The notes beneath the pieces were generated by a model. It saw only the letters and a program-made list of their open reading frames with translations. It did no database searches and was not told where the DNA came from. A DNA stretch of 64,000 nt, from contig NZ_LAJC01000004.1 in assembly GCF_000981225.1 (NCBI RefSeq), forward strand, positions 62,001 through 126,000, in the 5' to 3' direction. Shown piece after piece: positions 31,038 to 57,583 of this stretch (its first letter is position 1; each line of letters opens with the position of its first letter). The stretch is from Allosalinactinospora lopnorensis. GTDB taxonomy: Bacteria > Actinomycetota > Actinomycetes > Streptosporangiales > Streptosporangiaceae. Both the position numbers and the translations under genes were made by a program.

Positions 31038-31746
31038 CAGTCGCCTCTCATCAGGGGCATCGTCGGGTCGTGGTCGGGGAACCGCCTCGCCTTCGGGTTC
31101 GGCACCGCCACCCGGCCCGGCTTAACGCCGCGCAGCCTGTAGCGGCGGTGCAGGGGATCGAAGCTGAGCGGCACATCGCGCAGGCTGTCGGCGTCGGCGT
31201 CACCGGGTTCGGCGTCGACGAGGACGTCGAGTTCCACCTTCGGCTCCCTCCTGCGCCGGTACTGGTGCCTCTCGGACGCGTGCCACCCCACTTCCCGCTC
31301 GAAGACCCGCTTCAGGGTCCCTCGTAGACCCCGATATCGACCGGTCTGGACGGCGGGCAGGACCGCCTGCCCAGATACGGCAGGAACACCGGCCGCCGCA
31401 CCGCCCGGTGCAGTTCGCCGATCAGGTCGTCGTCGCCCTCCACCGCGGCGACGAACACCGCGTCGGCGAGGTAGAACCGGTGCGAGACCGGCATCGCGTC
31501 CTCGGTGTCGGCGTGGTGCGCGGTCTGGTAGTCGCGGATCCGCACGCCCTCCTGATCCACGCGCACCCCGAACCGCAGCTCGGCGAGGTCGGAGAGGTCG
31601 GCTGTGCGATCGCGCCCCTGCGCGGCGGCGAGCAGGCCGAGCACCCCGCTCTTGGTGGGCGCGTTCTCGGTGGTGCGCCGTGCGAAGCGGGCCGAGGAGC
31701 CCCATGCCTGCAGCGGGCCCGCCAGCAGCAGCGCCAGCACGCTCAC
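31037..31746 (-). pseudogene. cas5e: Type I-E Cascade subunit Cas5e (CasD), frameshifted
   Basis: A Cascade subunit that caps the 5' handle of crRNA. From GTG 31744-31746 the first frame reads LLLAGPLQAWGSSARFARRT and reaches PPSRPVDIGVYEG, then a TGA. The rest, TLKRVFEREVGWHASER to the basic C-terminus, is in the next frame. The shift falls at about 31314-31322 within a GGGACCC tract, and one extra base restores 236 residues. The start overlaps the cas7 stop as GTGA. An intact operon around it suggests a sequencing error or programmed slippage rather than old decay. As read, the protein is truncated. Confidence 0.88.
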
Positions 31747-32930: not shown

Positions 32931-32942
32931 GGTGGTGTGTCC

Positions 32943-33617
32943 TTACTTGGTGTCGGTGGTGGCGGGCTCGTCGTCGGAGGCGGTAGCTGGGGGGCGGTAG
33001 GCGACGAATCCACGTCCCCACGAGCTACGGATCTTGCTCATACCGCCCGGCTGCTGCGCGGTGACGAGCTGGTCGGCGAGCAGGCCGTAGTCGAGCGGCA
33101 CCGCTTCGCGGCGCAGCAGCTGCACGATGCCGCGCAGCCGGTAGGCGAGGATGGCCGTGCTCGTCGCCTTCCCGGCCTGGACGAAGCGCTTGCGCAGCGA
33201 CTCGTCGATCTCGGCACCGGCCATGAGCTCGCGCATCGCCCAGCCGAGGTCGCGGTCGCGGCGCCGCCCGGCCTGCCACATCGGGCCCCGGTGCATGCGG
33301 TCCTCGCGGCGGGACTGCTGGTGCAGCGCGTACAGGGTCAGGGCGATGTGGACGGCGGTCTCGGCCTGCTCCTCCTGCTTCTCGGTGCATCCCGGAGAGA
33401 TGTAGTCCGTGAGGTCGCCCGTGAGACCCCACAGGTCAGGGGGGTCGCCGGGCAGCTTGCCCGCGCCGCCGCGCAGTTGCGCGAGCGTCGCGACGGCGCC
33501 GGGCTGATCGGCGAGATAGCCGCCCTGGAGCGAGCCGATCCGCTTGGCGACGGCCGCGCCGAGAGGAGTCAGGTCGGTGCGGCCTGAGGCTTCGGTGGTT
33601 GCGGTATCGGATGTCAT
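32943..33617 (-). CDS. cse2: Type I-E Cascade small subunit Cse2 (CasB/Cas11)
   Basis: A 224-residue helical small subunit that contacts target DNA. The Cse2 pattern includes ALYALHQQSRREDRMHRGP, GWAMRELMAGAEIDESLRKR and ILAYRLRGIVQLLRREAVP with DYGLLADQL. ATG 33615-33617 overlaps the cas8e stop as ATGA. The C-terminal 25 residues are acidic and low-complexity. Confidence 0.94.
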   Translation of the reverse strand: MTSDTATTEASGRTDLTPLGAAVAKRIGSLQGGYLADQPGAVATLAQLRGGAGKLPGDPPDLWGLTGDLTDYISPGCTEKQEEQAETAVHIALTLYALHQQSRREDRMHRGPMWQAGRRRDRDLGWAMRELMAGAEIDESLRKRFVQAGKATSTAILAYRLRGIVQLLRREAVPLDYGLLADQLVTAQQPGGMSKIRSSWGRGFVAYRPPATASDDEPATTDTK

Positions 33618-35262
33618 GCGGGCGCCTCCGCGGGCTGCTCGGTGGTCATGGACAGGGACTTGCGCAGGCTCCGGTAGAACCGGCGTTCGGCGTGCGCGGA
33701 GTTGAGCCACAGGTCCCCGGTGCCGGTGGCGACGAGCCGCCCGGTCCAGGCGGCCTCACCCGCCTGATCCACCAGTTCGGCTCCGATGCCGCGGATGATC
33801 CGCCCCGCGGTGTCCTGCCAGTGCGCGCGGTACTCTTCCGGGTCGGTATCTGGGGCGATATCGCGCAGCCACTTCCGGAACGGCCCGTCCAGCGCGCCGA
33901 ATCCCCGGTCGCGGGCGGAGTCGCGCGGGCCGGCGGCTTCGGCCCCGACGGCGTGGGCCAGGTCGGCGGCGAGTTGGCCCAAGACGGTGACGGCGCCCTC
34001 CGCGTCTTTCACCGCCTCGATGGCGGTGTTCCCCAGTTCGGTGTCGCGGTTGTGCAGCAGCACCACCGGCATCGCGATCCGGTCGTCCACCACCTCGTCG
34101 ATCACCGACTGCTGGGTTCCGTAGACCGCGCCGACCAGCCGGGTACGGATCAGGAAATTCTTCTCCAGCGGTCCCTCAGTGGTGAGCCGCGCGATCCATT
34201 CCAGGATGCCGGGCCGCACACCGCCGGCGGCGTCCTGGCGCTGGCCGGCCTCCCGGGCATAGCCCACGATGATCGACTCCAGACCCCGCCAGGCGCTGCG
34301 GGAGGGAATGTGTTCGCGCGGCAGGTACACCTTCGACAGGCCGTGCTTCTTCTCCTGGGCGGGGCTACGCCGCCACGCCGTCATCGGCTCGCGCTCGTGC
34401 ATGTTGCGCGGCGCCAGCGGATCGCCGTAGGCGAGCAGTACGCCGTACACGCCATTGGTGTCGTAGTGCAGGCGCAGCCGGCGGGTCTGCCAGGTGTAGA
34501 GGTCGCGAACACCGTAGGGACGGAATACGGATTCCTTCCCCTTGAGCGCCGCGGCCTTCGGCGGCTCGAACCGCCACGCCGGGCGGTCCTCCTCGCCGGC
34601 CTGGATGTCCTCCTGGGAGATGAGGTTCAGCAGCAGGGTTTCCCGCAGGCTGTTCCCCTCCACGAGCACTCCGCCGAGGTTGCCCGCCCAGCCGATCCCC
34701 TGCGGGTAGCCCTTGCCGCCCTTGACCCGACTGTCCCCCACCGCGCCCGACTTGATTCCGGAGGGGTCATAGGCGTGCGCGTGCACCACCCAGCGGGCCG
34801 CTTCGGCGAAGCGGAGACGGTCGACCCCGCGCGCCCGCATGGTGAAGAACGGCGTGCCGTTGGGCACGTCGGCGACGATGCGGTTCAGCGAGGAGATCTC
34901 GCCCTTGGCGGTGTGCAGGCCGGCGACCTGGAAGAACGGGGTTTCGGGGTGGAGCAGGTCGAACCGGTCGCGGTGCCGGTCCAGGTAGTCGGCGATCTCC
35001 TCGACCGGCAGCCCACCCTCCACAGTTCCTGCCACTGCTCGGGGTCCTGCGGCCCGTCGACCGCGTCGTGCAGGATCGCCAGCAGCAGCCGCAGCAGCGC
35101 GAACTCCTGGGTGGGAATGTCGCCGACGATGCGGCGCAATTCGGGGGCCTGCCGGAAGACCTCCCGCAGGGACAGCTCCGCCTCGGTGCCGTCCGACCGG
35201 AGGACCGGGATCCACGGTTGATCGGTCAGGTCGAACGACATGTCGGGGGGCTCATTGGGCAT
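33614..35262 (-). pseudogene. cas8e: Type I-E Cascade large subunit Cas8e (Cse1/CasA), frameshifted
   Basis: The PAM-recognising large subunit. From ATG 35260-35262 the first frame gives MSFDLTDQPWIPVL, LREVFRQAPELRRI and DPEQWQELW, then diverges. At about 35018-35023 (TGG followed by AGGGTGGG) one G appears lost. The family sequence resumes as EGGLPVEEIADYLDRHRDRF and runs through HPETPFFQVAGLHT and FEPPKAAALKGKESVFRPYG to 33614. One base restores about 549 residues, normal for Cse1. The start overlaps the cas3 end by 11 bases. A homopolymer indel in sequencing is plausible. Confidence 0.88.
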
Positions 35263-38188
35263 GGTGGACCTCAAGTCCTTCGGTGGGTGAGTAGCTGAGT
35301 TCGCAGTCTGCTAACCGGGTGCGACAGTTCTCGTCCAGCACGAGGACCAGCTCTCCGGCCAGCCAGTGGCACTCCTTGTCCTGCCATGCGGGGAAGCAGT
35401 TCTGTTCCAGTTCCTCGATGGCCTGGTCGAGCAATTTGGAGAGGGTGAACGGGAAGGGCAGCCGCAGGGAGCACGCGGCGATCGTGCGGGCCAGGTCCGC
35501 TGGGGGCGCGGCGTCTTCGGGGATGGATCGTCCTCCCCTGTCCTCGCTGAGGTGCGGGAGGGTGGCGAGGGTTCCGTCCGCCCGCCGCTGCACGACCAGC
35601 ACCTCAATGCTGTCGTCGCTGTCGCGGACCTGGGCGCGGCCTTTCGCGGTGTCGTCGGCGTCGCCGACCCCGGCGTCCACCCACCCCACCAGGCTCCGCC
35701 CCACTCGGCCCGGAGCGGAAAGCCGGAACACGTCCGCTTCGACTCCCTGCTTCGCCTGGTGCACCTCGTACTTGTCGCGGGCCTCGTCCAGGGCCTTCCG
35801 CCACTCCGGCGGCCCGGCGGGGTCTTCCCCGTAGGCGTGCTGGACGAAGGGGCTGATGTCGTCGGGCAGCCGGACCGTACGGTCCTCCTCCTCGACCGCT
35901 GCCAGGTGGGGCTCCAGAACGGCCGCGGCGCGCAGCAGCGGCCAGAGGCCGTAGATCCGCCATGACCCGTCCACCGGTTTCGGCGGACTCTGCTCCCAGT
36001 CCGCGCCGGTGATCAGGCAGCGGGCTTGCCGCAGCCGCTCCGGGCGCTCGCTCTGCCCCTCCCCGCGCCGGTGGCGGTGCAGCCGGCCCATGCGCTGCAG
36101 CAGCAGGTCGACAGGGGCGAGGTCGGTGACCATGAGGTCGAAGTCGATGTCCAGGGACTGCTCCACGACCTGGCTGGCGACCACGATGTGCGCTCCGGTC
36201 GGGCGGTTCCCCCGGAGTTCGGCGACTTTCTCCGGCGGGCCGAAGGTGGCGAGCAGGCGCTCGTCGTTCTCGGCGCGGTCCAGGTCCAGGAAGCGGGCGT
36301 GGGCGACCTCGATGGCGGTTTGTGTTCCGGCGAAGTACTCCCGGAGGTAGTGGGCGGTCTCGTGCACCCGCCGTACGGTGTTGCGCACGACCACGGCGCA
36401 GCCGCCGTCACGGAGTTCACCGGCCAACCGGTCGGCGAGGGATCCCAGATCCTCATCGAGCCGCTCCAGCCGAACATCCGTGGCGCGCCCCGAGGCAGCA
36501 GGCCGGTACAATCGCGGTTCCTCACCCGGGACAACGGCGGTGATCAGCGGATAACCCCGTTCCTCCCCTACGGCGTCGAAGGCGGTGTCGTATCGCCGGG
36601 CCCCGGCGTAGGCCGCGGCGAGTTCCCGGCGGCGCCCGGCGGGCAGGGTCGCCGACAGCACCACCACCGGCACCCCGTAGGCCCCCAGCCAGGCGAGAAC
36701 CCGGTCCAGGTAGGTGTTCATGTAGGTGTCGTAGGCGTGCGCCTCGTCGATGACCACGGCCTTCCCGGCGACGGCCAGGTGGCGCAGCGCGAGGTGGCGG
36801 CTCTTCAGCCCGGCGAACAGCAGTTGGTCGACAGTGCCGACGGCGAACGACGACAGCATTCCCTTCTTGCGCCCGCGCAGCCAGTGGTGTGCCACCAGTG
36901 CGGCGGAGGACGCGCGTCTGTCCGACCGGTGGTCCAGGTGATCGGCCGCGCCGTCCCGGTCGATGTCGGCCGCCGCGCGCCCGGCATGGCGGGGAAGCCG
37001 CGCATAGTCCCTGTTGAGCGCGGACTTGGAGTGCCGCAGCTCCACCGAGTGGGCACCGGTCCCGGCTCGATGGTCCGGCAGGCGACTCAACCACTTCAGC
37101 AGCCGGGGGAACATCGCGTTGCTGGTGGCCATGGTGGGCAGCGCGATGAAGCAGCCGCCCGCACCGGCGCGGGCGGCGAGGCTCTCCACAGCCGCGAGCG
37201 CCGCCTCGGTTTTCCCCTCCCCCATTGGCGCCTCGACCAGCAGCATCCCGGGGCCGGTCACCTCCCGAGCGGCACGGACGGCCGCTTCCTGCACCGGCCG
37301 GATCTCGGCTTCCTCGGGAAGGTCGAAACGGGCGGCGAAGAGTTCGGCCGTGTCCTCCACGGGCTCCACCGCTTCCCAAGGGGAGGGCAGCTCGACCTGC
37401 CGCCACGCGTTCTCCACCCGGTCGGGATCGGTGAGCGAGGCATCAGGGGCGTAGGGGAAGAAGTCCCGGTTGCTGGCGATCCAGTCCGCCATGATCACTA
37501 ACGCGGAGAGTAGGACCTGCACGGGCTGCGGCAACTTCGCCTCGCGCCAGGCGTCAAGGCGGGCAGCGGCCCCGGTCGCCTCCGCACAGGCGTTGAGCAG
37601 TTCCTCCTGGACGCCGTGCCACGCCTCCTCGCTGCCGCGGGTGCGCAGCAGGTACGGCGACTCGGTGAGTGCCTTGATGTCGGAATGGGTGGGCGGAACC
37701 CCGTGGTGGCCGCCGACGATGGTGGTGATCTGGTGGATGGCCGTTTTCCGCCACCCGTGGTGCTCGGTCAGCCACTGCTGCAGGAGAACCTGACCGGCCA
37801 GGCCGTGCGGAGCGAGCTTGCGGTCATCGCCCAGTTCCCTGTAGGTCCGCATCTCCAGCCCGTGGTCGCGCATCCTGCCCGTTAGTCGGCCCACTTGGCA
37901 CGCGAACGCGGGGGTCGCCTTCCCGATGTCGTGGACGGCCGCCAGCCACACCGCGAGTACCCGGGCGTCGTCCGCGCCACAGGGAAAGGCGTCCGCGATG
38001 AGGTGACGGACCTTACGCGGCAGCCAGTGGTCCCACAGCCGTCCCGCGATCTCGGCGCTATCCGCCATGTGGCACCACAGCGGCAGCCAGGCATCGTCTT
38101 CGTCTTCACGACTGGACTTGGCCCAGGCGGAGCGGGCTCTCTCCGTGAGTCCCGCAAGAGCGCAGTGGAGGGCGCTGGGGGTAGTCAT
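35252..38188 (-). CDS. cas3: CRISPR-associated helicase-nuclease Cas3 (type I-E)
   Basis: A 978-residue Cas3 that nicks and degrades target DNA recruited by Cascade. The N-terminal HD nuclease has His40 (WCHMAD), VHDIGK at residues 85-90 and VGGHHGVP near residue 169. The helicase follows with Walker A APMGEGKTEAAL near residue 328, VIDEAHAYD (DEAH), VVLSATLP, and motif VI LLQRMGRLHRHRR. The C-terminal domain is normal in length. ATG 38186-38188 is first in the operon, just left of array 2 and a strong hairpin. The frame is intact. Confidence 0.96.
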   Translation of the reverse strand: MTTPSALHCALAGLTERARSAWAKSSREDEDDAWLPLWCHMADSAEIAGRLWDHWLPRKVRHLIADAFPCGADDARVLAVWLAAVHDIGKATPAFACQVGRLTGRMRDHGLEMRTYRELGDDRKLAPHGLAGQVLLQQWLTEHHGWRKTAIHQITTIVGGHHGVPPTHSDIKALTESPYLLRTRGSEEAWHGVQEELLNACAEATGAAARLDAWREAKLPQPVQVLLSALVIMADWIASNRDFFPYAPDASLTDPDRVENAWRQVELPSPWEAVEPVEDTAELFAARFDLPEEAEIRPVQEAAVRAAREVTGPGMLLVEAPMGEGKTEAALAAVESLAARAGAGGCFIALPTMATSNAMFPRLLKWLSRLPDHRAGTGAHSVELRHSKSALNRDYARLPRHAGRAAADIDRDGAADHLDHRSDRRASSAALVAHHWLRGRKKGMLSSFAVGTVDQLLFAGLKSRHLALRHLAVAGKAVVIDEAHAYDTYMNTYLDRVLAWLGAYGVPVVVLSATLPAGRRRELAAAYAGARRYDTAFDAVGEERGYPLITAVVPGEEPRLYRPAASGRATDVRLERLDEDLGSLADRLAGELRDGGCAVVVRNTVRRVHETAHYLREYFAGTQTAIEVAHARFLDLDRAENDERLLATFGPPEKVAELRGNRPTGAHIVVASQVVEQSLDIDFDLMVTDLAPVDLLLQRMGRLHRHRRGEGQSERPERLRQARCLITGADWEQSPPKPVDGSWRIYGLWPLLRAAAVLEPHLAAVEEEDRTVRLPDDISPFVQHAYGEDPAGPPEWRKALDEARDKYEVHQAKQGVEADVFRLSAPGRVGRSLVGWVDAGVGDADDTAKGRAQVRDSDDSIEVLVVQRRADGTLATLPHLSEDRGGRSIPEDAAPPADLARTIAACSLRLPFPFTLSKLLDQAIEELEQNCFPAWQDKECHWLAGELVLVLDENCRTRLADCELSYSPTEGLEVHHAQ

Positions 38189-43993: not shown

Positions 43994-44422
43994 TCAGCGG
44001 CCAGGTTCGGACGCCCGGTCGAAGCGTTCGCGGCTGGTCGCGATGTAGGGGTGGTTCACCTCGGCCCATTCGATCAGCGGCCGCAGCCGCGCGGCCAGGG
44101 TCCGGCCGACATCGGTCAATTCGTATTCGACGCGCGGTGGCGTGTGCTCGGTCACCGCTCGGGTGACCAGGCCGTCGCGTTCCAGATTGCGCAGGGTCAG
44201 AGTCAGCATCCGCTGGGAAATGCCGTCGATTTCGCGGCGCAGTTCCGAGTAGCGGAGGGGGCCCGATTCGAGCAGGCTGATCACCAGCACGCTCCACCGG
44301 TCCCCGATCCGGTCCAGAACGTAGCGGATATCACACCGGTTCGCCCTTACCTGCACGGTAACACCAGTGTTCGTTGCGAACACGGATTTTCCGTCTTCCG
44401 GTGGGCGTTCGTTCTCTTCCAC
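43994..44422 (-). CDS. HxlR-family winged-helix regulator
   Basis: The HxlR domain is complete: CDIRYVLDRIGDRWSVLVIS, LRYSELRREIDGISQRMLT, LRNLERDGLVTRAVTEHTPP and VEYELTDVGRTLAARL. With GTG 44420-44422 (GAGG six bases upstream) it is 142 residues. An in-frame ATG at 44449 and a GTG at 44383 are alternatives. HxlR proteins often sense redox or quinones through the N-terminal cysteine, here in NRCDIRY. It is divergent from the DoxX-like gene, which is its likely target. Confidence 0.9.
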   Translation of the reverse strand: MEENERPPEDGKSVFATNTGVTVQVRANRCDIRYVLDRIGDRWSVLVISLLESGPLRYSELRREIDGISQRMLTLTLRNLERDGLVTRAVTEHTPPRVEYELTDVGRTLAARLRPLIEWAEVNHPYIATSRERFDRASEPGR

Positions 44423-44471
44423 AATGGTCCTCACAAGTTTCGGCTCCATCAACGAGAATACGGGGTGAGGC

Positions 44472-44849
44472 GTGCTCATCGCCGCGGTCGTTCTACCCAT
44501 TTTGCTGGCCTTGGCAGTGCTGGCCATCGGTGTCCCGAAGGCACTCAAGTTGGAAAGCGCCGTGCGGCAAACGGAGGACATGGAGCTCGACCTCAGGGTA
44601 ATGCGTCTGACGGGCGTGTTCGAGACGCTCGGCGGCATCGGACTGCTCGCCGGACTGGCCGGCGGATGGCTCGGGATCACGGGCGCCGTGTGGCTGGCCA
44701 TCGCCGCCGGAACCGGCCTGTTCGTACTCATGCTCCTGGCGCTCGGGTTCCATATGCGCAGGCGGGATCCTGTTAAGGCCATGGCGCCGTCCACGGTCCT
44801 GCTGGTTCTTTCGACCGCCGTGCTGGTCGTGCTCATGCGCGCGGCGTAA
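44472..44849 (+). CDS. DoxX-like integral membrane protein
   Basis: A 125-residue protein with four predicted membrane helices and a DoxX/DUF4267-like pattern (GVPKALKLESAVRQTEDMEL, TGVFETLGGIGLLAGL). GTG 44472 is preceded by TGAGGC at short spacing. The arrangement divergent from an HxlR regulator is common, and the pair may respond to quinone or oxidative stress. Function is otherwise unknown. Confidence 0.82.
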   Translation: MLIAAVVLPILLALAVLAIGVPKALKLESAVRQTEDMELDLRVMRLTGVFETLGGIGLLAGLAGGWLGITGAVWLAIAAGTGLFVLMLLALGFHMRRRDPVKAMAPSTVLLVLSTAVLVVLMRAA

Positions 44850-45283
44850 GGCCGAGCGGCTCCCTCGTACCCATATCGGCACACATATCCCGCGCTCTTC
44901 GATAATTAAAGATGAATTTTGCGGACCGAAGCGTGATCCACCCCACGTTGAGTTGATCTCCTCCCCTGTGCTGCCCTGGGTTCAGAATACGGTCCGGATT
45001 TTTATGAAGACGGGGGACGGTGGCGATCACCGGGCCGCGTATGAGATGGGCAACATTGTTTTAATCGGGGTCCGGCGGACCGCCGCCGATGGGGTTTCCC
45101 TTGCTTCTGGGACTTTCTTTGTTTTTCTCTGGAACGAGAGGCAGTGCGTTACCAGCCGGGGATGATCCCCCTGATAAGGCTGGCAGGGCATTCGCGCCGA
45201 TGGGCCCGGGAGTCCCCGACAAAGAGCGATGTGTAAATCCTGGGAGAGCTCTCACTTTGAATCTGTATCAAGAACGAACCGGC
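44850..45283. other. Upstream region of the biosynthetic operon
   Basis: A 434-base gap with an AT-rich segment around 44890-44925, likely holding the promoter of the NRPS-like gene. No conserved frame was found. The frame open through 45089-45283 lacks a ribosome site and homology. Confidence 0.4.
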
Positions 45284-48064
45284 ATGTCCGAGGGGACCCA
45301 CCCCTGGAACTCCTTCGACACCGCGGTTGACCTGCTGACCGGCGCCGCCGAGCTGTGGCCCCAGGCCGGGACCACCTACGCCGGCCCCGACTCCCCCGAT
45401 GACTCGGTGTTCCAGTCCTACCCGGCCCTGCTCATGGCGGCCTCGCGCCTGCTCGGCGGGCTGCGCGCCGAGGGTCTGCGACCCGGGGACCACGTGGTCC
45501 TCCTCCTGGAACAGCCCCAGGACTACGTCCCCGCCCTGTGGGCCTGCTTCCTCGGGGGCTTCGTGCCCTGCCCGATGAGGCCCCAGGCCACCGGCGGCGA
45601 CCGCTGGATCGAGCAGCTGCTGCACGTCGACGCGCTGCTGGAGCGTCCGCTGTGGCTCACCACCAAGGGACTGCGCGCGGACCTGCCTTCCGCCCCCGAA
45701 GTGGCCGGTCTGGCCGTGCGTTGTCTGGAGGAGACATCCGCCGACGCACCGGAGAGTGCCTTCCACCGGGCCAGGCGGGGTGAAACCGCCCTGCTCATGC
45801 TCACGTCCGGCTCCACCGGCCGCCCCAAGGCCGTGGCGCTCTCGCACGCCAACCTGCTGGCGGCGATGCCCGCCAAGGCGGCGAGCCTGCGACCGGACGC
45901 GGGCGACACCACGATGAACTGGATCGCCTTCGACCACATCTCCGCCATCGAGATGCACCTGCTCCCGATGGGCGCGGGCGCGCACCAACTGCAGGTCGCC
46001 CCGGAGACCGTCCTCGGCGAACCGCTGCGTTTCCTGCGGCTCGCCGACGCCCACCGGGTCACCCTCACCTTCACGCCCAACTTCCTGTTCGCCCAGATGA
46101 ACCGGGCCTTAGCGCGGGAGGAGGAGCTGTCCCTGGACCTGTCCCCGCTGCGCCGCATCATCTCCGGAGGCGAGGCCACCGTTTGTGCGACGGTCGAGGA
46201 GTTCCTCGACCGGCTCGCGCCCTTCGGCCTGGTCCGCGACGCGGTCGCACCGGGCTTCGGGATGACCGAGACGTGCGCCGGGAGTGTCTTTTCACTGGAC
46301 TTCCCGGACGTCGACGCCGGCCGCGAGTTCGCCTCCCTCGGCCACCCGGTTCCCGGCATGGAGCTGCGCATCGCCTCCGAGGGCGACGAGCGCCCACTGC
46401 CCGACGGTGAGGAGGGCGAACTCCACGTCCGCGGGCCCATGGTGTTCAGCGGCTATCTCAACAACGAGGAGGCCACCCGCGCGGCGTTCACCCCGGACGG
46501 CTGGTTGCGCACCGGCGACCGCGGCATGCTGAACGGGGGCCGGCTGACGCTGGCCGGACGCAGCAAGGACAGCATCATCGTCAACGGCGTCAACTACTTC
46601 AGCCACGACCTGGAGACGGTTCTCGAGCGGCTGGAGGGCGTAGCGAAGTCCTACGTCGCCGCGTTCCCGATCCGGCCGCCCGGCAGCGACACCGAGCAGC
46701 TCGCCGTCGTCTTCGCCTCCGAGGTTCCTTTCGAGGAGGAGGCGGAACTGTACCGCCTGCTGGTGACCGTGCGCAGCAGCACCGTGCTGCACTGGGGTTT
46801 CCGCCCCGCGCTCATCCTGCCGCTGGACACCTCCGACATCCCCAAGACCAGCCTCGGCAAGATCCAGCGCTCCCAGCTGCGCAAGCGCTTGGAGGCCGGC
46901 GAGTTCGATGCGGCGCAGGCGCTCGTCGCCGAGCTCACCACCCGCCAGCTCGGCGGCCACACCCCGCCGGAGGGCGCGGCCGAGACCGCGCTCGCCGAGA
47001 TCTACGCCGAGATGTTCGGCACGGACCCGGCGGAGATCAGCGCCACGGCGAGCTTCTTCGACCTGGGCGGGACGTCCCTGGACATCCTGCGGTTGAAGAA
47101 CTCCATCGGGCGGGTCTTCGATCTGCCCGACGTCCCGGTCGTGCAGATCCTGCGTGCCCCCACGGTTCGCGAGCTGGCCGCGCGGCTCGGCGGCGCCCGG
47201 GGCGACCGGGAGGTGGCCGCCTACGACCCGCTTGTCCCGCTCCAGCTCAGCGGGGACGGCACCCCGCTGTTCTGCGTGCACCCGGGCGTCGGCGAGGTGC
47301 TGGTGTTCGTCAACCTGGCGAAGTACTTCATCAACGAGCGCCCGTTCTACGCCCTGCGCGCCCGCGGTTTCGGCGAGGGGGAGGGCTACTTCTCCACGTT
47401 CCGTGAGATGGTCGACACCTACGTCGAGGCCATCCGCGCCGAGCAGCCCGCCGGCCCCTACGCCGTCGCCGGGTACTCCTACGGCGGCATCGTCGCCTTC
47501 GAGATCGCCAAGTCCCTGGAGGCTAGGGGCGAGAGGGTCGACTTCGTCGGGATCTTCAACCTGCCGCCGCACGTCCAGGACCGCATGCACGAGCTCGACC
47601 TCGTCGAGGGCGCGGTCAACCTGGCGTTCTTCCTGTCGCTGGTCACCAAGGAGCAGGCCGCCGAGCTGCCGGACGTGCTGCGCAACGGCATGACCCGCGA
47701 CGAGCAGCTCAAGTACCTCATCGACATCGCGCCGAAGAAGCGCCTGGCCGAACTCGACCTCGACGTCGCGAAGTTCGGGGCGTGGGTCGACCTCGCCCAG
47801 TCGCTCGTCCGCCTGGGCACGACCTATGAGCCGAGCGGGGACGTGCGCTCGCTCAGCGTCTTCTACGCCATCCCCCTGCGCGGCACGAAGGAGGACTGGC
47901 TGAACAACCAGCTCCGGGCGTGGGATGACTTCTCCCGCGAGGAGAACCGATACATCGACGTCCCCGGTGAGCACTACACGCTCATGGGGCCCGACCACGT
48001 GGCCGCCTTCCAGGCCGTCCTGCGTGCGGAACTCGGCCGCGCGCTGAGCGGCGACCGCCCCTGA
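45284..48064 (+). CDS. A-T-TE NRPS-like enzyme, candidate terphenylquinone (polyporic acid-type) synthetase
   Basis: A 926-residue enzyme with three domains and no condensation domain. The adenylation domain (about 1-560) has LLMLTSGSTGRPKAVAL near 169, FDHISAIEMHL, the GFGMTETCAG motif and the TSLGKIQRSQLRK lysine. A carrier domain near 575-650 has FFDLGGTSLDIL (Ser at about 599). The thioesterase has nucleophile motif AGYSYGGIVAFE near 730 and a late His in GEHYTLMG. This A-T-TE layout, with an FDH-type A-domain core, is that of enzymes that condense two arylpyruvates to terphenylquinones or furanones. ATG 45284 has only a weak ribosome site. Confidence 0.88.
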   Translation: MSEGTHPWNSFDTAVDLLTGAAELWPQAGTTYAGPDSPDDSVFQSYPALLMAASRLLGGLRAEGLRPGDHVVLLLEQPQDYVPALWACFLGGFVPCPMRPQATGGDRWIEQLLHVDALLERPLWLTTKGLRADLPSAPEVAGLAVRCLEETSADAPESAFHRARRGETALLMLTSGSTGRPKAVALSHANLLAAMPAKAASLRPDAGDTTMNWIAFDHISAIEMHLLPMGAGAHQLQVAPETVLGEPLRFLRLADAHRVTLTFTPNFLFAQMNRALAREEELSLDLSPLRRIISGGEATVCATVEEFLDRLAPFGLVRDAVAPGFGMTETCAGSVFSLDFPDVDAGREFASLGHPVPGMELRIASEGDERPLPDGEEGELHVRGPMVFSGYLNNEEATRAAFTPDGWLRTGDRGMLNGGRLTLAGRSKDSIIVNGVNYFSHDLETVLERLEGVAKSYVAAFPIRPPGSDTEQLAVVFASEVPFEEEAELYRLLVTVRSSTVLHWGFRPALILPLDTSDIPKTSLGKIQRSQLRKRLEAGEFDAAQALVAELTTRQLGGHTPPEGAAETALAEIYAEMFGTDPAEISATASFFDLGGTSLDILRLKNSIGRVFDLPDVPVVQILRAPTVRELAARLGGARGDREVAAYDPLVPLQLSGDGTPLFCVHPGVGEVLVFVNLAKYFINERPFYALRARGFGEGEGYFSTFREMVDTYVEAIRAEQPAGPYAVAGYSYGGIVAFEIAKSLEARGERVDFVGIFNLPPHVQDRMHELDLVEGAVNLAFFLSLVTKEQAAELPDVLRNGMTRDEQLKYLIDIAPKKRLAELDLDVAKFGAWVDLAQSLVRLGTTYEPSGDVRSLSVFYAIPLRGTKEDWLNNQLRAWDDFSREENRYIDVPGEHYTLMGPDHVAAFQAVLRAELGRALSGDRP

Positions 48065-48122
48065 CCCCCGATTCCGAGAAGGCCGGACCGGGCGACAGCT
48101 CGGCAAACCCACGAGGAGGCAC

Positions 48123-49052
48123 GTGTCCACACGTAGGAAGGTCCTGATCACAGGGGCGACCGGGCAGGTGGCCCGGCAGGCCGCCGAGACGCTCGCGCTG
48201 AACGACGAGGTCTGGTGCCTGGCACGGTTCAGCGACCCCGGCATCGAGCGCGACCTGGCGGCGAAGGGCGTCCGCACCCGGCGGTGGGACATGGCCGCCG
48301 ACGGGCTCGACGGACTGCCCGACGACTTCACCCATGTGTTGCATGCGGCCGCGTACCGCGGCGACGGAACCGACTTCGAGACGACCCTCGACATCAACTG
48401 CGTGGCCACCGGGCGGCTGATGACGCACTGCCGCCGAGCCGAGGCGTTCCTCTACATCTCCAGCGGCGCCGTCTACGCCCGGCAGAACCGCGACCACCTG
48501 CACACCGAGACCGATCCCCTCGGGGGGTGGACACCGTGGCTGCCCACCTACCCCGTCGGCAAGACCGCGGTCGAGGGGACGGTGCGCGCGTACGCCGACA
48601 CGCTCGGCCTGCCCTCCACCATCGCCCGGCTGAACATCGCCTACGGCCCACACGGCCACGGCGGCGTCCCCATGCTGCTGTTCCGGCGGATGCAGGCCGG
48701 AGAACCCGTCGAGGTCCCCCGTGAGGGCCAGAACCGGTGCAACCCCATCCACACCGACGACATCGCCCGCCAAGTCCCGCTGCTGTGGGACGTGGCCGCC
48801 GATCCGGCGACCGTCGTCAACTGGGGCGGCGACGACGTGGTCGGCATCCAGGACATCCTCACCTACCTGGCCGAGATCACGGGGACCGAGGCGCTGTTCG
48901 AGCCCAGCGAGGCCCCACGCGAGACGCATGCCTTCGACAACACCCGGCGCCAAACGTTCATCGGCGGCTGCACGGTCGACTGGCGCACCGGGCTGCGCCG
49001 CACCCTGGAGGCCCACTTCCCCGGCGCCACCGCACCCGCCGCGCCGGCCTGA
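48123..49052 (+). CDS. NAD-dependent epimerase/reductase (extended SDR), candidate quinone reductase
   Basis: A 309-residue extended SDR. The dinucleotide motif is VLITGATGQVARQAAETLA. The catalytic region has LYISSGAVYA and TYPVGKTAVEG, a Tyr-xxx-Lys pair, then ARLNIAYGPHGHGG and the PIHTDDIARQVP domain. GTG 48123 follows GAGGAGG, 58 bases after the synthetase. By position it resembles the reductase of terfestatin/echoside-type pathways (TerB), which reduces the polyporic acid quinone. That role is inferred from context. Confidence 0.85.
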   Translation: MSTRRKVLITGATGQVARQAAETLALNDEVWCLARFSDPGIERDLAAKGVRTRRWDMAADGLDGLPDDFTHVLHAAAYRGDGTDFETTLDINCVATGRLMTHCRRAEAFLYISSGAVYARQNRDHLHTETDPLGGWTPWLPTYPVGKTAVEGTVRAYADTLGLPSTIARLNIAYGPHGHGGVPMLLFRRMQAGEPVEVPREGQNRCNPIHTDDIARQVPLLWDVAADPATVVNWGGDDVVGIQDILTYLAEITGTEALFEPSEAPRETHAFDNTRRQTFIGGCTVDWRTGLRRTLEAHFPGATAPAAPA

Positions 49053-49095
49053 ACCAGGCCCGCACAGTCCGCCCCACGAGAAAAGGAAGGCACGC

Positions 49096-50523
49096 GTGTC
49101 GACCAACACCGAGCTCATCCGCGCCTCCTACGCCGCGTTCCGACGCGGCGACATCGACGCCGCCACCGCCTTGTTCGACCCCGGCATCGAGTGGACTCAC
49201 CCAGACGGCATGGAGGACTACGGCCTCGGCGGGACGAAGAAGGGCATCGACGAGGTGCGCGCGTTCATGGCCCGCGCCCGGACCGTGTTCAGCGAACTGC
49301 GCCAGGAGCCGCGGGAGTTCCTGGAATCCGGCGACCGGGTCGTGGTGATCGGCGTCCACCACATGCGCGGCGCCCGCAGCGGGGTCACCGGCACCGTCCG
49401 GTTCGTGCACACCTGGCGGCTGGCCGATGGCAGGGCGACGCACTTCGAGGACCACCACGACACCTACGACGTGCGCCGCATCGTCGATGCCGGTGACGCC
49501 GCGCACGGCGACGGCGCCGACTCGCCCGGCCGGATCGTCCAGACCGGTCTGGCCTTCTGGCAGGCCAAGACGCTGCACACGGCGGTCGAGCTGCGGCTGT
49601 TCACCGAGCTCGCCGCCGCCGGGCCGCTGGACGCCGGCCAGCTGCGCACCCGGCTCGGTCTGCACGGGCGCGGGCTGCGCGACTTCCTCGACGGCCTGGT
49701 CTCCATGGGTCTACTGGAGCGCGAGGACGGGCGCTACCACAACCTGCCGGGCCCGGACGCCTTCCTGGACGAGGCTAAGCCGGACGGCTTCATCGGCGGG
49801 CTGCTGGAGGTCGCCTCCCAGCAGTGGTGGCAACCGTGGAGCCGGCTCGGCGAGGCGCTGCGCACGGGGGAGCGGCAGAATAACGTCCACGGCGGAGAGG
49901 ACCCGTTCACCGCGCTGTACTCCGACCCGGAGCGGGCACGCCGGTTCCAGCGCGCCATGACCGGCGGCTCCACCGGGAGCATCGCCGCCCTCATCGACCG
50001 GCTGCCCTGGAGTGAGCACCGGACCGTCGCCGACGTCGGCTGCTCGGAGGGCGCGCTGCTGAGCCGCGTACTGCGCGCCCATGAGCACCTCACCGGCATC
50101 GGATTCGACCTACCCGTGGTCGAACCGCTCTTCGGGGAGACGGTCGCCGAGGCCGGCCTGGGCGATCGCCTGTCCTTCCAGGCGGGCGACTTCTTCGCCG
50201 ACCCGCTCCCGCAGGCGGACCTGATCGTCTTCGGCCATGTCCTGCACGACTGGGACCTGGAGACCAAGCGCATGCTGCTGCGCAAGGCCTACGAGGCGCT
50301 GCCGGACGGCGGCCGGGTCGTCGTCTACGAGGCACTGATCGACGACGGGCGTCGGCACAACACGTTCGCGCTGATGATGAGCCTGCACATGCTCGTGGAG
50401 AGTTCCGGCGGATTCGACTACACCGGGGCGGACTGCCGCGGCTGGATGGCCGAGGCCGGGTTCCGGAACTGCTACGTCCAGCACCTGGCCGGGCCCGAGT
50501 CCATGATCGTGGGCATCAAGTGA
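49096..50523 (+). CDS. Fusion of NTF2/SnoaL-like domain and O-methyltransferase
   Basis: A 475-residue two-domain protein in one uninterrupted frame. Residues about 1-130 are an NTF2-like SnoaL domain (ELIRASYAAFRRGDIDAATA, TWRLADGRATHFEDHHDTYD). After a 15-residue linker, residues 150-475 are a class I O-methyltransferase. That part has a dimerisation helix region (LFTELAAAGPLDAGQLRTRL), a SAM motif VADVGCSEGALL near 310 and LHDWDLETK. GTG 49096 follows AAAAGGAAGG. SnoaL-like domains catalyse dehydration or cyclisation, so the fusion could dehydrate and methylate, or the methyltransferase part may be structural. Motif I lacks the usual double Gly (DVGCSEG). Confidence 0.85.
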   Translation: MSTNTELIRASYAAFRRGDIDAATALFDPGIEWTHPDGMEDYGLGGTKKGIDEVRAFMARARTVFSELRQEPREFLESGDRVVVIGVHHMRGARSGVTGTVRFVHTWRLADGRATHFEDHHDTYDVRRIVDAGDAAHGDGADSPGRIVQTGLAFWQAKTLHTAVELRLFTELAAAGPLDAGQLRTRLGLHGRGLRDFLDGLVSMGLLEREDGRYHNLPGPDAFLDEAKPDGFIGGLLEVASQQWWQPWSRLGEALRTGERQNNVHGGEDPFTALYSDPERARRFQRAMTGGSTGSIAALIDRLPWSEHRTVADVGCSEGALLSRVLRAHEHLTGIGFDLPVVEPLFGETVAEAGLGDRLSFQAGDFFADPLPQADLIVFGHVLHDWDLETKRMLLRKAYEALPDGGRVVVYEALIDDGRRHNTFALMMSLHMLVESSGGFDYTGADCRGWMAEAGFRNCYVQHLAGPESMIVGIK

Positions 50524-51596
50524 CGCCGCCCGACGGGCACCGGCCTGCGGCGCCGGCCCCCAGAGGACAAGGAGAGCGCGTTCCCGACGAGAAGCCGGAG
50601 GACGCCGCGTCCCGCCTGCTGGAGATGCACGATCGCCTCATCCACTCGCGCGCCCTGCAGACCGCCGCGGAGCTGGGAATCGGCGACCTGCTCGCGGACG
50701 GCCCGCGCACCGCGGCCGACCTCGCGGCGGCCACCTCCACTCGGCCCGACGCGCTGTACCGGCTGCTGCGCCTGCTCGGCGCGTGCGGCGTGCTGACCGA
50801 GACCGAGCCGGGCGGCCCGTTCGCGCTCACCCCGTCCGGCGGCCCGCTACGCTCCGACCACCCCTTCAGCGTCCGCTCCACGCTGGCGTTCGGCGGGGTC
50901 ATCGCCACGGCCTTCAACGCCTGGACGCACAGCCTGCGTACCGGGGAGGCGTCCTTCCCGGAGGTGTTCGGCGCGCCCTTCTTCGACTACCTGGAGGACC
51001 GGCCCGAGCACGGGGCCTTGTTCAACGCCGCCATGGAGGAGATGAGCCGGCCGGTGGTCTCCGCCGTGGTCGGCTGCTACGACTTCGCCGCGGCACGGCG
51101 GATCGTCGACGTCGGTGGGGGCAACGGGACGCTGATGAGCGCCGTCCTGCGCACCGCACCCGAGGCCCACGGCATCATCCTCGACGCCCCGCACGTCGTC
51201 GGCGCCGCCCGGGGGAAGATCCGGGACTCTGGCCTGGAGGAGCGCTGCACCGTCGTCGGCGGGGACTTCTTCCAGAAGGTTCCGGAGGGCGGGGACCTGT
51301 ACCTGCTGAAGTGGATCCTGCACGACTGGCCGGACGACCGCGCGACCGCGATCCTGCGCGGCTGCCGTCAGGCCATGGCCGAGGACGGCCGGGTGGTGCT
51401 CGTCGAGACGGTGGTCCCGCCCGGCGACACCCCGCACCCGTCCAAGACCATGGACCTGAGCATCCTCGCCCTGCTGGGCGGGCTGGAGCGGACCGAGGAG
51501 CAGTTCGCGTCCCTGCTCGCCGACGCGGGCCTCCGGCTGCGCCGCGTCGTCTCGACGCCCTCGCCGTTCAGCCTCATCGAGGCCGAGTCGGTCTGA
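50520..51596 (+). CDS. SAM-dependent O-methyltransferase
   Basis: A 358-residue class I O-methyltransferase (hydroxyneurosporene/AcnC-type family). The N-terminal winged helix dimerisation domain (AAELGIGDLLADGPRTAADL) precedes the SAM site VDVGGGNGTLMSAVL near 196. KWILHDWPDDRAT then carries the conserved catalytic His. GTG 50520 overlaps the fusion gene stop as GTGA. The last gene of the four-gene operon, it probably methylates phenolic hydroxyls of the terphenyl product. Confidence 0.9.
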   Translation: MTPPDGHRPAAPAPRGQGERVPDEKPEDAASRLLEMHDRLIHSRALQTAAELGIGDLLADGPRTAADLAAATSTRPDALYRLLRLLGACGVLTETEPGGPFALTPSGGPLRSDHPFSVRSTLAFGGVIATAFNAWTHSLRTGEASFPEVFGAPFFDYLEDRPEHGALFNAAMEEMSRPVVSAVVGCYDFAAARRIVDVGGGNGTLMSAVLRTAPEAHGIILDAPHVVGAARGKIRDSGLEERCTVVGGDFFQKVPEGGDLYLLKWILHDWPDDRATAILRGCRQAMAEDGRVVLVETVVPPGDTPHPSKTMDLSILALLGGLERTEEQFASLLADAGLRLRRVVSTPSPFSLIEAESV

Positions 51597-53816: not shown

Positions 53817-54308
53817 GTGGCGGACAGGGCGCGTCTGCGTGGTCCGGAGCCGGTCACAGTAGAGCTGTCGATCAACCATCGGACCCGTATTCTGGAGATC
53901 GAGCCGCGGACGAGCCTTCTCGATGCCCTGCGCGAACAGCTCGATCTCACCGGTTCCAAAAAAGGGTGCGATCAGGGGACGTGCGGTGCCTGCACCGTAT
54001 GGGTCGACGGGCGCCGAGTGTTGGCGTGCTTGACGCTCGCGATCACCTGCGAAGGCCGTGAGATCACCACCATCGAGGGGTTCTCCGACGGTCGTCGGAT
54101 GAACGCCATGCAGCGGTCCTTCATCAAGCACGACGCTTTCCAATGCGGATACTGCACCCCGGGTCAGGTCATGTCCGCCGTTGCGTTGCTCGATGAGGGG
54201 CACGCCTCAAGCGACGCCGAGATCGCTGAGTGAATGAGCGGCAACCTATGCCGCTGCGCCGCCTACCCCAATATCCGGACGGCGATCCGCGAGGTGCGGG
54301 ATGAGGGG
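53817..54308 (+). pseudogene. Aldehyde/xanthine oxidoreductase 2Fe-2S subunit (PaoA-like) with internal stop
   Basis: The small iron-sulfur subunit of a molybdenum hydroxylase. The plant-type cluster motif is GCDQGTCGACTVWVDG with a later Cys in RRVLACLT. The second cluster has FQCGYCTPGQVMSA and, after a TGA at 54231-54233, MSGNLCRCAAYPNIRTAI. The conserved residue at that TGA is Trp, so a single G-to-A change (TGG to TGA) interrupts the gene and removes the last cluster ligands. The frame then continues into the FAD subunit without another stop. GTG 53817 has a weak ribosome site. Confidence 0.85.
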
Positions 54309-54320
54309 CCGGGGGCAGGC

Positions 54321-55313
54321 ATGCGTCCGGTTAGTTATGCGAGAACCACGGACGTAGACGGTGCGATCGCCCTCGTCAGCAATACTCCGGCCAGCGCTTT
54401 CCTGGCCGGGGGCACGACCGAGGTCGACCTGGCTCGGCAGAACGTCCTTCAGCCCGACCTGCTGGTCGATATCAACGATCTTCCGCTGAAGGAGATCGGG
54501 GAACGGCCCGACGGGAGTGTGCGCCTCGGGGCGCTGGCGCGAATGAGCGACGTGGCGGAGGCCCGTGGTGGTGAACCGGTTCCCGATGGTCGCCCAGGCG
54601 CTCGTTCTCGGTGCCTCGCCGCAGCTGCGTCACATGGCTTCCATGGGGGGAAATCTGCTCCAACGCGTTCGCTGCAGCTACTTCCGCGATCCGCACGCGC
54701 CGTGCAACAAGAGGCTGCCGGGCAGCGGCTGTGGTGCTTTGGAGGGGATCAACCGCGGTCACGCGATCCTGGGCACCAGTGACCACTGCATCGCCACACA
54801 TCCCTCGGACGTCGCCGTGCCCCTGGTCGCTCTGGACGCCATCGTGCATGTCGAGGGACCTTCCGGCGGCCGCGCGATTCCGATCGACGACTTCTTCCTC
54901 CTGCCCGGCGATAGCCGGAACGGGAGCACCCACTCGACCATGGCGAGTTGGTCGTGGCGATCGATATACCACCGTCACCGGCGGCTCGGCGTTCGCTGTA
55001 TCTCAAGGTCCGCGACCGGCAGTCCTACGAGTTCGCCCTGGCTTCGGTGGCGGTCGCAGTACGGATCGAGGACGATACCGTCGCCGAGGTCCGCCTCGCG
55101 TTGGGCGGTGTGGCCACGAAACCGTGGCGGGCCCGCCGCGCTGAGGAACTGCTTTCCGGACGACCCGCCCAGACGGACGGCTTCGCCCGCGCCGCACGCG
55201 AGGAACTCGCCCTTGCGGTCCCTCGACGCCACAACGCGTTCAAGGTCGAACTCGCGCAACGCGCGATGATCCGCGCACTCGAGTCGGCCGCGATGACGGG
55301 AGGGACACCATGA
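54321..55313 (+). pseudogene. Aldehyde oxidoreductase FAD-binding subunit (PaoB-like), frameshifted twice
   Basis: The flavin subunit. FLAGGTTEVDLARQNV (FAD loop) lies near residue 35. The frame changes near 54565, continuing as VVNRFPMVAQALVLGASPQL, ASMGGNLLQRVRCSYFRD and CNKRLPGSGCGAL, the cysteine pattern of PaoB-type proteins that bind an extra 4Fe-4S cluster. A second shift near 54940 returns to the first frame with HGELVVAIDIPPSPAARRSL. The C-terminus ends at 55313, overlapping the large subunit start as ATGA. As sequenced it cannot make a full subunit. Confidence 0.85.
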
Positions 55314-57583
55314 CCGCGGTGACAAACCAGACGATCAGTCAGCCACTCGACCGGGTCGACGGTCCGGCCAAGGTAACCGGACGCGCCCGCTACTCGGCCG
55401 AGATCCCGCTGCCGGGTACGGTCCACGCGGTCCTGGTCGGCGCGGTGGTGCCGAGCGGCCGGACCAACACCATCCAAACGGGCGAAGCCGAGCAGGTGCC
55501 GGGCGTGCTCGCTGTGCTGACCCACGCCAACCTGCCCAAGATCGCGGCACAACCGCGGTTGTTCCCGTCACTGTTCGGCCATGCGGCTGTCGGGGAGACG
55601 TTCTTCCCGATGCAGGACGATGTCGTTCACTACGCCGGCCAGCCCGTCGCGATGGTGGTCGCCGACACCCTGGAACGGGCCCAGCACGCAGCGGGCCTGG
55701 TCCATGTCAGCTACCACACCGCCCCTTCGACCACGACCTTGGAGCAGGGGCGCGACCGGGCCTACGAGCCGGGGCGGATCTTCGGTGGCCTGCTGCCGGG
55801 ACGAATGGAGCGCGGTGACCCCGATAGTGGTCTCGCGAAGGCGCCCGTGCACATCGACCGGACCTACCGGTTCGCCGCCAACCACCACAACCCCATCGAA
55901 CCTTCCAGCACCACCGCGGTCTGGGAGGACGACCGGCTCACCCTCTACGACTCCACGCAGGGCATAACCGCCACCCGGCTCACAGTCGCCGAGCTCATGG
56001 GCCTGCCTTCGTCGAATGTCCGAGTCCTGACGCACTATGTCGGCGGCGGCTTCGGAGCCAAGGCGATGATCTGGCCCCATGTGGCGCTCACCGCGATCGC
56101 CGCACGCTATGTCGGGCGCCCGGTCAAACTCGCCCTGACCCGCGAACAGATGTTCAGCTCCTGCGGCCACCGCGAGGAGCAGGAACAACACGCCGTGCTC
56201 GGCGCCGGCAACGAGGGCCGCGTCACCACGCTGCGCCATCACAAGCTCTCGGCGACCTCGCCCTTCGACGACTGGGCCGAGCCGTCGCTGAACGTCGCCG
56301 CGCAGGCGTACTCCTACCCGAATTACCAGGGCAGCTACCGACTCGTCCGCACCAACACCATGACGCCGACGTTCACCCGCGGGCCGGGTGAGGCCTCCGG
56401 AATGTTCGCCTTGGAGTCCGCAATGGACGAACTCGCCTACGAGCTCGGCCTGGACCCGATCGAACTGCGGCTGCGCAACCACGCCGACGCCGATCCTCTC
56501 ACCGGAAACCCCTGGTCCAGCAAGGGGCTCCGGGAGTGCTACCAGCGCGGTGCCGAACGCTTCGGGTGGCGGGAGCGGAACCCGGCAGCACGCTCCCAGC
56601 GTGACGGGCACTGGCTGATCGGTTCCGGAACGGCAACAGCGGGCTACCCTGTCCCGGCTTTCCCGGGACTGCAGCCCCAGCGGGCGCGGGCGCGGCTGTA
56701 CGCCGACGGCAGTGCCGTGCTCCAGGCCGGAACACAGGAGTTCGGCACCGGGGTGGCGACCGCGATGACCCAGGTCGCCGCCGACGGCCTTGGCGTCCCA
56801 CTCGACCGCGTGCGTTTCGACTACGGCGACACCGAACTGCCGAACACCGCCCCCGCGGTCGGCTCAGCGGGATCCGGCATGGTCAGCTCCGCCGTTCACA
56901 GCGCTGCCACGAGCCTGCGCGACCAGCTCGTCGCCCAGGCCGTCGCCCAGGCCGTCGCCGACAGCGAATCGCCGTTGCACGCCGCAGATCCAAGCACCGT
57001 GGTCGTAGGCGACGGTCGGATGATGCTGCGTGACCGTCCCGAAACCGGCGAGACCTATAGCGAACTGCTGCAGCGCAATGGGGTGGAGGATGCCGAAGCG
57101 CTGGGAAGCTGGCAGCCCACCGGTATGGACACCGGTTACGCGCTGACCACGTTCGGTGCTCAGTTCGCAGAGGTCGCCGTGGATTCGGACCTCGGGCTCG
57201 TCCGTGTCCGGCGGATGGTCGGCGCCTTCGCCCCGGGCCGCGTGCTCAACCCCAAGACCGCGCGCAGCCAGCTCATGGGCGGGATGCTCTGGGGAATGAG
57301 CCAGGCCCTCCCCGAGGGCACCCAGATGGACAGCCGGATGGGCCGCTGGGCGAATGCGAGCTTGGGCGAGTACTTGGTACCCGTGAACGCAGACGCGCCC
57401 GAGGTCGACGTTGAGTTCGTCGAGGTCCGCGAGGACGTCGCCAACCCGCTCGGGGTCAAGGGAGTCGGTGAGATCGGCCAGATCGGCGCGGCGGCGGCCA
57501 TCGCCAATGCCGTCTTCCACGCTACCGGCCACCGCGTCCGCGAGCTTCCGATCAGAATCGAGCACCTGCTGCGATCCGCATGA
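55310..57583 (+). CDS. Aldehyde oxidoreductase molybdenum-binding subunit (PaoC/xanthine dehydrogenase family)
   Basis: A 757-residue large subunit binding the molybdenum cofactor. It starts with DRVDGPAKVTGRARYSAEIP and has the FHNPIEP-like NHHNPIEPSSTTAVW region. HYVGGGFGAKAMIW and TRGPGEASGMFALESAMDEL bind the pterin. The catalytic glutamate is in KGVGEIGQIGAAAAIANA near residue 719. It is intact, while its two partner subunits are broken upstream. Family members oxidise aldehydes or purines, and the 4Fe-4S signature in the FAD subunit points to the PaoABC aldehyde group. ATG 55310 overlaps the preceding stop. Confidence 0.9.
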   Translation: MTAVTNQTISQPLDRVDGPAKVTGRARYSAEIPLPGTVHAVLVGAVVPSGRTNTIQTGEAEQVPGVLAVLTHANLPKIAAQPRLFPSLFGHAAVGETFFPMQDDVVHYAGQPVAMVVADTLERAQHAAGLVHVSYHTAPSTTTLEQGRDRAYEPGRIFGGLLPGRMERGDPDSGLAKAPVHIDRTYRFAANHHNPIEPSSTTAVWEDDRLTLYDSTQGITATRLTVAELMGLPSSNVRVLTHYVGGGFGAKAMIWPHVALTAIAARYVGRPVKLALTREQMFSSCGHREEQEQHAVLGAGNEGRVTTLRHHKLSATSPFDDWAEPSLNVAAQAYSYPNYQGSYRLVRTNTMTPTFTRGPGEASGMFALESAMDELAYELGLDPIELRLRNHADADPLTGNPWSSKGLRECYQRGAERFGWRERNPAARSQRDGHWLIGSGTATAGYPVPAFPGLQPQRARARLYADGSAVLQAGTQEFGTGVATAMTQVAADGLGVPLDRVRFDYGDTELPNTAPAVGSAGSGMVSSAVHSAATSLRDQLVAQAVAQAVADSESPLHAADPSTVVVGDGRMMLRDRPETGETYSELLQRNGVEDAEALGSWQPTGMDTGYALTTFGAQFAEVAVDSDLGLVRVRRMVGAFAPGRVLNPKTARSQLMGGMLWGMSQALPEGTQMDSRMGRWANASLGEYLVPVNADAPEVDVEFVEVREDVANPLGVKGVGEIGQIGAAAAIANAVFHATGHRVRELPIRIEHLLRSA

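Follow-up and report, generated by a model that had tools for sequence, protein, structure and literature searches.

The region analysed here (the window) is a 64,000-nucleotide stretch of the Allosalinactinospora lopnorensis genome, contig NZ_LAJC01000004.1, which carries a four-gene, plus-strand operon for the predicted synthesis of O-methylated p-terphenyls. The first gene (45284-48064) encodes a 926-residue quinone synthetase resembling nonribosomal peptide synthetases (NRPS-like), with adenylation (A), thiolation (T) and thioesterase (TE) domains (Pfam AMP-binding, PP-binding and Thioesterase). It is followed after 58 bp by a 309-residue extended short-chain dehydrogenase/reductase (SDR; 48123-49052; Epimerase) similar to TerB and EchB, and after a further 43 bp by a 475-residue protein (49096-50523) in which an NTF2-like domain of the TerC type is fused to an O-methyltransferase, MT1 (SnoaL_2, Dimerisation and Methyltransf_2). 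A second O-methyltransferase of 358 residues, MT2 (50520-51596), also has Dimerisation and Methyltransf_2 domains, the latter with E = 3e-48, and its gene overlaps that of the fusion by the four bases GTGA. A preliminary description, made from the sequence alone, had proposed this operon, its domain assignments, the GTGA overlap and two O-methyltransferases; the coordinates of the open reading frames (ORFs) and the Pfam domains bear it out, terphenyl O-methylation being the predicted activity. It had also noted the lack of a glycosyltransferase, and Pfam detects none in any gene of the conserved block.

This block extends beyond the operon. The same four-gene order is present in two related genomes, G021 and G075 (loci L061 and L062), where the MT2 homologues are 68% and 67% identical, and in both an HxlR-family regulator gene and a DoxX gene lie upstream. 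Three outer neighbours in the window, an aldo-keto reductase (AKR), a lipase and a small ORF, have no match at the G021 and G075 loci, so the conserved block is bounded at 43994-51596. The conserved unit is wider than the four genes first described, and the regulator and DoxX gene also belong to it.

By homology the SDR is a TerB-like reductase: over residues 5-300 it matches the solved TerB structures (PDB 6nd7 and 6d2v) with phmmer E-values of 1.1e-120 and 1.3e-120, and the next-best solved SDR reaches only 1.3e-10. The NTF2-like domain (residues 1-132; 49096-49491) matches TerC (PDB 6d34, E = 3e-33) with HP..M and LGG kept; an uncharacterised NTF2-like protein, 3ebt, is a better match (E = 7e-38). 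The terphenyl-pathway assignment first made for these two proteins is upheld. A linker (residues 134-140; 49495-49515) with pLDDT under 50 leads into a RedM-like methyltransferase domain of the COMT type with an HDW motif (49525-50520). The MT1 part is 54% identical to RedM (E = 5e-111 by sequence), and in an AlphaFold2 model of the 475-residue fusion (mean pLDDT 91.7, pTM 0.70) residues 142-475 overlay RedM (PDB 8tjj) with a Z-score of 43.0 and an rmsd of 1.1 over 318 aligned residues. Because the matches in the structure searches (50 shown for each) cover the methyltransferase part, these searches are silent on the NTF2 fold, which is assigned from sequence.

The fusion is a single uninterrupted frame here and in G021 (77% identity) and G075 (74%), which excludes both a sequencing artefact and a chance event. 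Homologues of the 475-residue protein occur in further genomes and one has been solved: PDB 22ow matches the whole fusion with E = 9e-139 at about 49-50% identity, is identical to the G045 fusion over 460 residues, and was absent among the matches listed in the structure searches of the fusion model. Together with the genome searches, 22ow rules out that the fusion is unique. The motif DVGCSEG, singled out earlier as an atypical S-adenosylmethionine (SAM) motif, turned out to be ordinary, as DVGCSEG, DIGCAEG and similar sequences are common in the aligned RedM-like relatives. The catalytic His of the HDW motif, whose role is described in PMC10784701, is readable in both MT1 and MT2 and is absent from RedM (Ser) and from the G045 (Leu), G654 (Cys) and Actinomadura flavalba relatives.

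The synthetase has the A-T-TE domain order, without a condensation domain, and the motifs GGTS, GYS[YF]G and G[EQ]H[YH]TLM (carrier Ser, thioesterase Ser and His) are found in all 15 aligned sequences, its own included. Its A domain has McyG and 6ulw as best PDB matches and scores 154 bits against the AA-adenyl-dom model, under the cut-off of 317. Relatives with 55-61% identity occur in seven genomes of family f18, apparently a Streptomyces family, each beside a TerB-like SDR. Within the A domain, the stretch NWIAFDHISA-IEMHLLP (45917-45979) includes a short form, FDHISA-IEMHLLP, with one residue less than the FDHVAALLECHLLP of the Streptomyces synthetases that have a separate NTF2 gene. The short form occurs in all six fusion clusters with an SDR, in L080 and L082, and at two SDR-less loci (G045 and G066); the long form is found in the seven separate-NTF2 clusters (7/7) and in L077, and constitutes a single clade in the synthetase tree (15 sequences, L109 not included), so the length difference may be one event. 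A prephenate dehydrogenase gene adjoins L069, and relatives of it (48% and 50% identity, tblastn) lie near L076 and L186; all three loci carry the short form. Prephenate dehydratase is found near one locus only, L137, where the form is long. The short form is a candidate marker of specificity for 4-hydroxyphenylpyruvate (4-HPP), and the likely precursor here is 4-HPP, giving the quinone atromentin, rather than phenylpyruvate, giving polyporic acid. Polyporic acid had been the quinone first expected; it is revised to atromentin in view of the short form and the 4-methoxyphenyl rings of the Nocardiopsis gilva terphenyls discussed below.

The distribution of these genes was surveyed in related genomes. 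The fusion query found matches in 125 of 150 family genomes (E = 1e-10 or better), most of the listed matches being by the methyltransferase part alone. Nearly full-length matches, among those listed, were found in G021, G075, G045 (50%), G109 (46%) and G107 (43%), and partial ones in G007 (from residue 72 on) and G097 (from residue 67 on). The SDR query gave matches in 5 of 341 family genomes at E = 1e-70 and in 34 of 394 class genomes at E = 1e-50; ten of the latter, with 57% identity or more, were kept and 24 with 37-46% were set aside, one of which, L084, was inspected; its 18 kb gave no match to the A-T-TE synthetase. With the A-T-TE query, 12 of the 394 class genomes gave a match at E = 1e-180. 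The resulting census comprises 18 loci and the window, with L186 and L187 being two copies in one genome, both at contig ends; L105, L109 and L137 came from a search with the fusion alignment and so were preselected for an NTF2 or methyltransferase match, and the remaining loci came from the fusion, SDR or A-T-TE searches. An A-T-TE synthetase and a TerB-like SDR occur together in 16 genomes, six of which have a fusion (the window, G021, G075, G107, G165 and G654) and seven a separate NTF2 gene (L078, L079, L081, L083, L105, L109 and L137), with no NTF2 match at the other three loci (L077, L080 and L082). Two loci have the synthetase without an SDR, G045, which has a fusion, and G066.

The fused methyltransferase is not always the same one. 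MT1 and MT2 clades are separated at 100/100 support, and the methyltransferase fused to the NTF2 domain in G107 (Sphaerisporangium album, with L102 as its named copy) and in G165 belongs to the MT2 clade rather than to MT1; these two join the MT2 homologues at 99/99, and at 100/98 in a second tree. The NTF2 tree does not separate a single fusion origin with a change of partner from two origins.

Retention of the NTF2 residues follows the reductase. The set H35, P36, M39, L44, G45 and G46 is kept in all 13 reductase-linked NTF2 domains, and T47 in 12 of them, with G654 as the exception; the full set is found in none of four unlinked domains (those of G045 and A. flavalba and two paralogues in the window's own genome), each of which retains part of it, and since the sequences are related these counts are not independent. 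A fifth unlinked domain, in L066, is without most of the region. This pattern of conservation suggests a catalytic role for the six residues. The joining of dehydration and methylation in one chain, as first proposed, stands at the level of the domain fusion, and the fused NTF2 domain is putatively catalytic. The two paralogues (L074 and L075, on contigs C66 and C116) share 44% and 39% identity with the fused domain and lack the TerC-type set.

Upstream of the operon, the HxlR-family gene (43994-44383, minus strand, start codon inferred; Pfam HxlR, E = 5e-28) is divergent from the gene for the DoxX_2-family protein (44472-44849, plus strand; E = 2e-16). HxlR orthologues with 72% and 70% identity adjoin the same operon in L061 and L062, and the DoxX neighbour is 70% identical in both. 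Relatives of the regulator with 58-60% identity occur close to three further clusters, L069, L076 and L137. A Cys before the HxlR helix-turn-helix (HTH) domain is kept in all seven of the eight aligned sequences that reach it. HxlR proteins of this type have been linked to quinone stress, as have DoxX proteins. The pair would probably sense and buffer the quinone; an open-licence literature search found nothing that combines HxlR, quinone and DoxX. A promoter scan found no sigma-70-like site, and terminator-like sites number six against 2.5 expected; upstream of the synthetase a repeat scan detected one imperfect inverted repeat along with two families of short direct repeats.

Gene content, homology, conservation and co-occurrence together make it probable, in our judgement, that this is a compact p-terphenyl operon which is fed with atromentin, couples dehydration to methylation and leads to a product of the tetramethoxy-terphenyl type. 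The A-T-TE synthetase would dimerise an arylpyruvate, most likely 4-HPP, to a terphenylquinone (atromentin); the SDR would reduce this quinone and the NTF2 domain dehydrate the product, which would give a trihydroxylated central ring. The 2,3,5-trihydroxyterphenyl of the fungal allantofuranone pathway is reported to be unstable and to undergo re-oxidation or dimerisation, and it seems to be stabilised by O-methylation; for the echosides the same step is made by two collaborating enzymes (PMC12105029). As the trihydroxy catechol/hydroquinone is labile, the methyltransferase tethered to the dehydratase may methylate it at once, before it re-oxidises, so that the intermediate would pass from one domain to the other ahead of oxidation, and MT2 would complete the remaining methylation. 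A bolder form of this proposal, which we advance only tentatively, is that the joining of a TerC-type dehydratase to an O-methyltransferase, with methyltransferases of both the MT1 and the MT2 clade, was selected as a trap for a self-oxidising trihydroxy-terphenyl, serving here an atromentin-fed, Nocardiopsis-type methoxy-terphenyl pathway under a quinone-sensing HxlR regulator.

A candidate product comes from Nocardiopsis. G021 has a novobiocin-type cluster, with matches to the C-methyltransferase NovO (E = 2e-136), NovP (E = 6e-172) and PTase_Orf2 (E = 1e-118) and with aldolase, rmlD-like and gyrB-like genes; its gene order was compared with that of the novobiocin cluster. N. gilva YIM 90087 is reported to make novobiocin, 6'-hydroxy-4,2',3',4''-tetramethoxy-p-terphenyl and a benzothiazole terphenyl (PMC7024382). 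Given this cluster and these products, G021 is probably N. gilva. The same tetramethoxy-p-terphenyl is described from Nocardiopsis CG3, a strain close to N. rosea and N. gilva (PMC9137728, PMC9363871), and nocarterphenyls from other Nocardiopsis strains (PMC9231205). The three oxygens on its central ring and its four methyl groups are consistent with a single reductive dehydration of a 2,5-dihydroxyquinone and with two methyltransferases, and the expected product of the operon is 6'-hydroxy-4,2',3',4''-tetramethoxy-p-terphenyl or a close relative.

Several observations weigh against parts of this account. CouO matches the G021 C-methyltransferase nearly as well as NovO (E = 4e-134), the prenyltransferase family occurs also in G045 and so is not specific by itself, and it has no match in the window's own genome. 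A pTM of 0.70 and a floppy linker give no evidence of a channel in the modelled fusion. In G654, where reductase and fusion are both present, NTF2 positions 47, 68, 74 and 81 differ and Cys takes the place of the HDW His. HxlR relatives are found in L159 (59%) and L095 (53%), where no A-T-TE synthetase was found, and weaker ones at five further loci, so the regulator alone is not specific to A-T-TE clusters. Prephenate dehydrogenase, prephenate dehydratase, chorismate mutase and DAHP synthase have no match in 24 kb around the operon. Finally, position 5 of the A-domain code, placed by motif alignment, is Ile here. In the fungal rule Ile or Val at this position means phenylpyruvate and Asn 4-HPP (PMC10316625), which would make phenylpyruvate the precursor.

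This last point, an Ile shared with the fungal polyporic acid synthetases, favours the same pathway run from phenylpyruvate, through polyporic acid to a terferol-like methoxy-terphenyl with unsubstituted outer rings, as does the identification of polyporic acid as the product of EchA and DatA (PMC9379647). The Ile is, however, also present in L069 and L076, two loci close to a prephenate dehydrogenase homologue, so the fungal rule fails to discriminate among bacterial synthetases and was dropped as a test of substrate. The short A-domain form is that of the three clusters with a prephenate dehydrogenase homologue, the prephenate dehydratase cluster having the long one, and the two named N. gilva terphenyls bear 4-methoxyphenyl rings (PMC7024382); we regard the phenylpyruvate route as unlikely. 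It is quite improbable that the NTF2 domain has no catalytic activity and survives as a remnant or as a module for dimerisation, with water lost spontaneously or through another protein and the fusion acting as a methyltransferase only. Such a domain can evidently persist without dehydration, since fusions with no reductase nearby (G045, i.e. 22ow, A. flavalba and G097) have lost the residue set, and an NTF2 gene went undetected in 3/16 clusters; against this, the set is whole here and in every tabulated reductase-linked domain. That the enzymes act on some other quinone, such as a bis-indolylquinone or naphthoquinone, and that the terphenyl link misleads, seems scarcely credible in the face of the strong homology to TerB and TerC and the agreement with the reported Nocardiopsis terphenyls, even if RedM, the closest single-domain solved relative of MT1, methylates a bisindole (PMC10784701) and NTF2-MT1 relatives in L065 and L066 stand beside long ORFs that by eye resemble polyketide synthases.

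The atromentin-fed operon preferred here can be set beside several known systems. The TerABC, EchABC and DatABC cores likewise consist of an A-T-TE synthetase, an SDR reductase and an NTF2-like dehydratase. The dat genes are described in PMC9379647. In all three cores the dehydratase is separate, TerC and EchC being stand-alone proteins, and the seven separate-NTF2 loci of the census resemble them in this; here the NTF2 domain is part of a one-frame fusion with an O-methyltransferase, which is followed by another methyltransferase, and 4-HPP is the likely precursor. The protein of 22ow (labelled 'Methyltransferase'; identical to the G045 fusion over 460 residues) has the same full-length NTF2-MT1 architecture and is encoded beside an A-T-TE synthetase, but differs in that the 19 kb examined contain no match to the SDR, the NTF2 set is lost and the HDW His is Leu. 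RedM, the reductasporine enzyme, is an N-methyltransferase that N,N-dimethylates its substrate (PMC10784701) and has Ser where MT1 has the usual catalytic His. The fungal allantofuranone pathway (AlfA, AlfC and AlfD) also combines a quinone synthetase, reductive dehydration and a stabilising O-methylation; AlfC unites reductase and dehydratase (PMC12105029), whereas the fusion here unites dehydratase and methyltransferase.

The operon would provide a proposed gene cluster for the reported Nocardiopsis p-terphenyl family; among the matches listed in the open-licence literature, no earlier work on a Nocardiopsis terphenyl cluster or an NTF2-methyltransferase fusion was found. It may also be a case in which the maker of an unstable intermediate is fused to the enzyme that caps it, and it offers a candidate one-residue A-domain marker of 4-HPP versus phenylpyruvate for bacterial quinone synthetases.

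The idea that every relative of the fusion belongs to a terphenyl pathway is contradicted by L065 (A. flavalba) and L066 (G097), which have no A-T-TE match and whose neighbours look like those of other biosynthetic pathways. Their NTF2-MT1 fusions, with the NTF2 residue set lost, lie beside a FAD monooxygenase-like gene and near the long ORFs mentioned above; a flavodoxin-like reductase is also present in L065, and a homologue of arylamine N-acetyltransferase in L066, an ansamycin-like setting. In L080 (9116-11110) and L082 (9616-11613) the A-T-TE and TerB-like SDR genes are followed by a gene for a protein of about 660 residues with a C-terminal aminotransferase domain (Pfam, L080) and an unassigned N-terminal part, with no NTF2 match at either locus. 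L137 (25-11439; Streptomyces phaeofaciens) holds a terphenyl-type cluster near genes for prephenate dehydratase, a class II DAHP synthase and chorismate mutase; an HxlR gene, a zinc dehydrogenase, a methyltransferase and a DoxX gene are also in its vicinity.

Elsewhere in the window, a CRISPR array with a 61-base period lies beside genes for Cas2 (CT1978 type), Cas1, a CT1975-like protein and Cas3 (27337-38188), presumably a type I-E set. A molybdenum hydroxylase-like gene set at 53817-57583 is probably broken or mis-assembled, since two ORFs (54234-54782 and 54948-55313) share its FAD-binding part between them.

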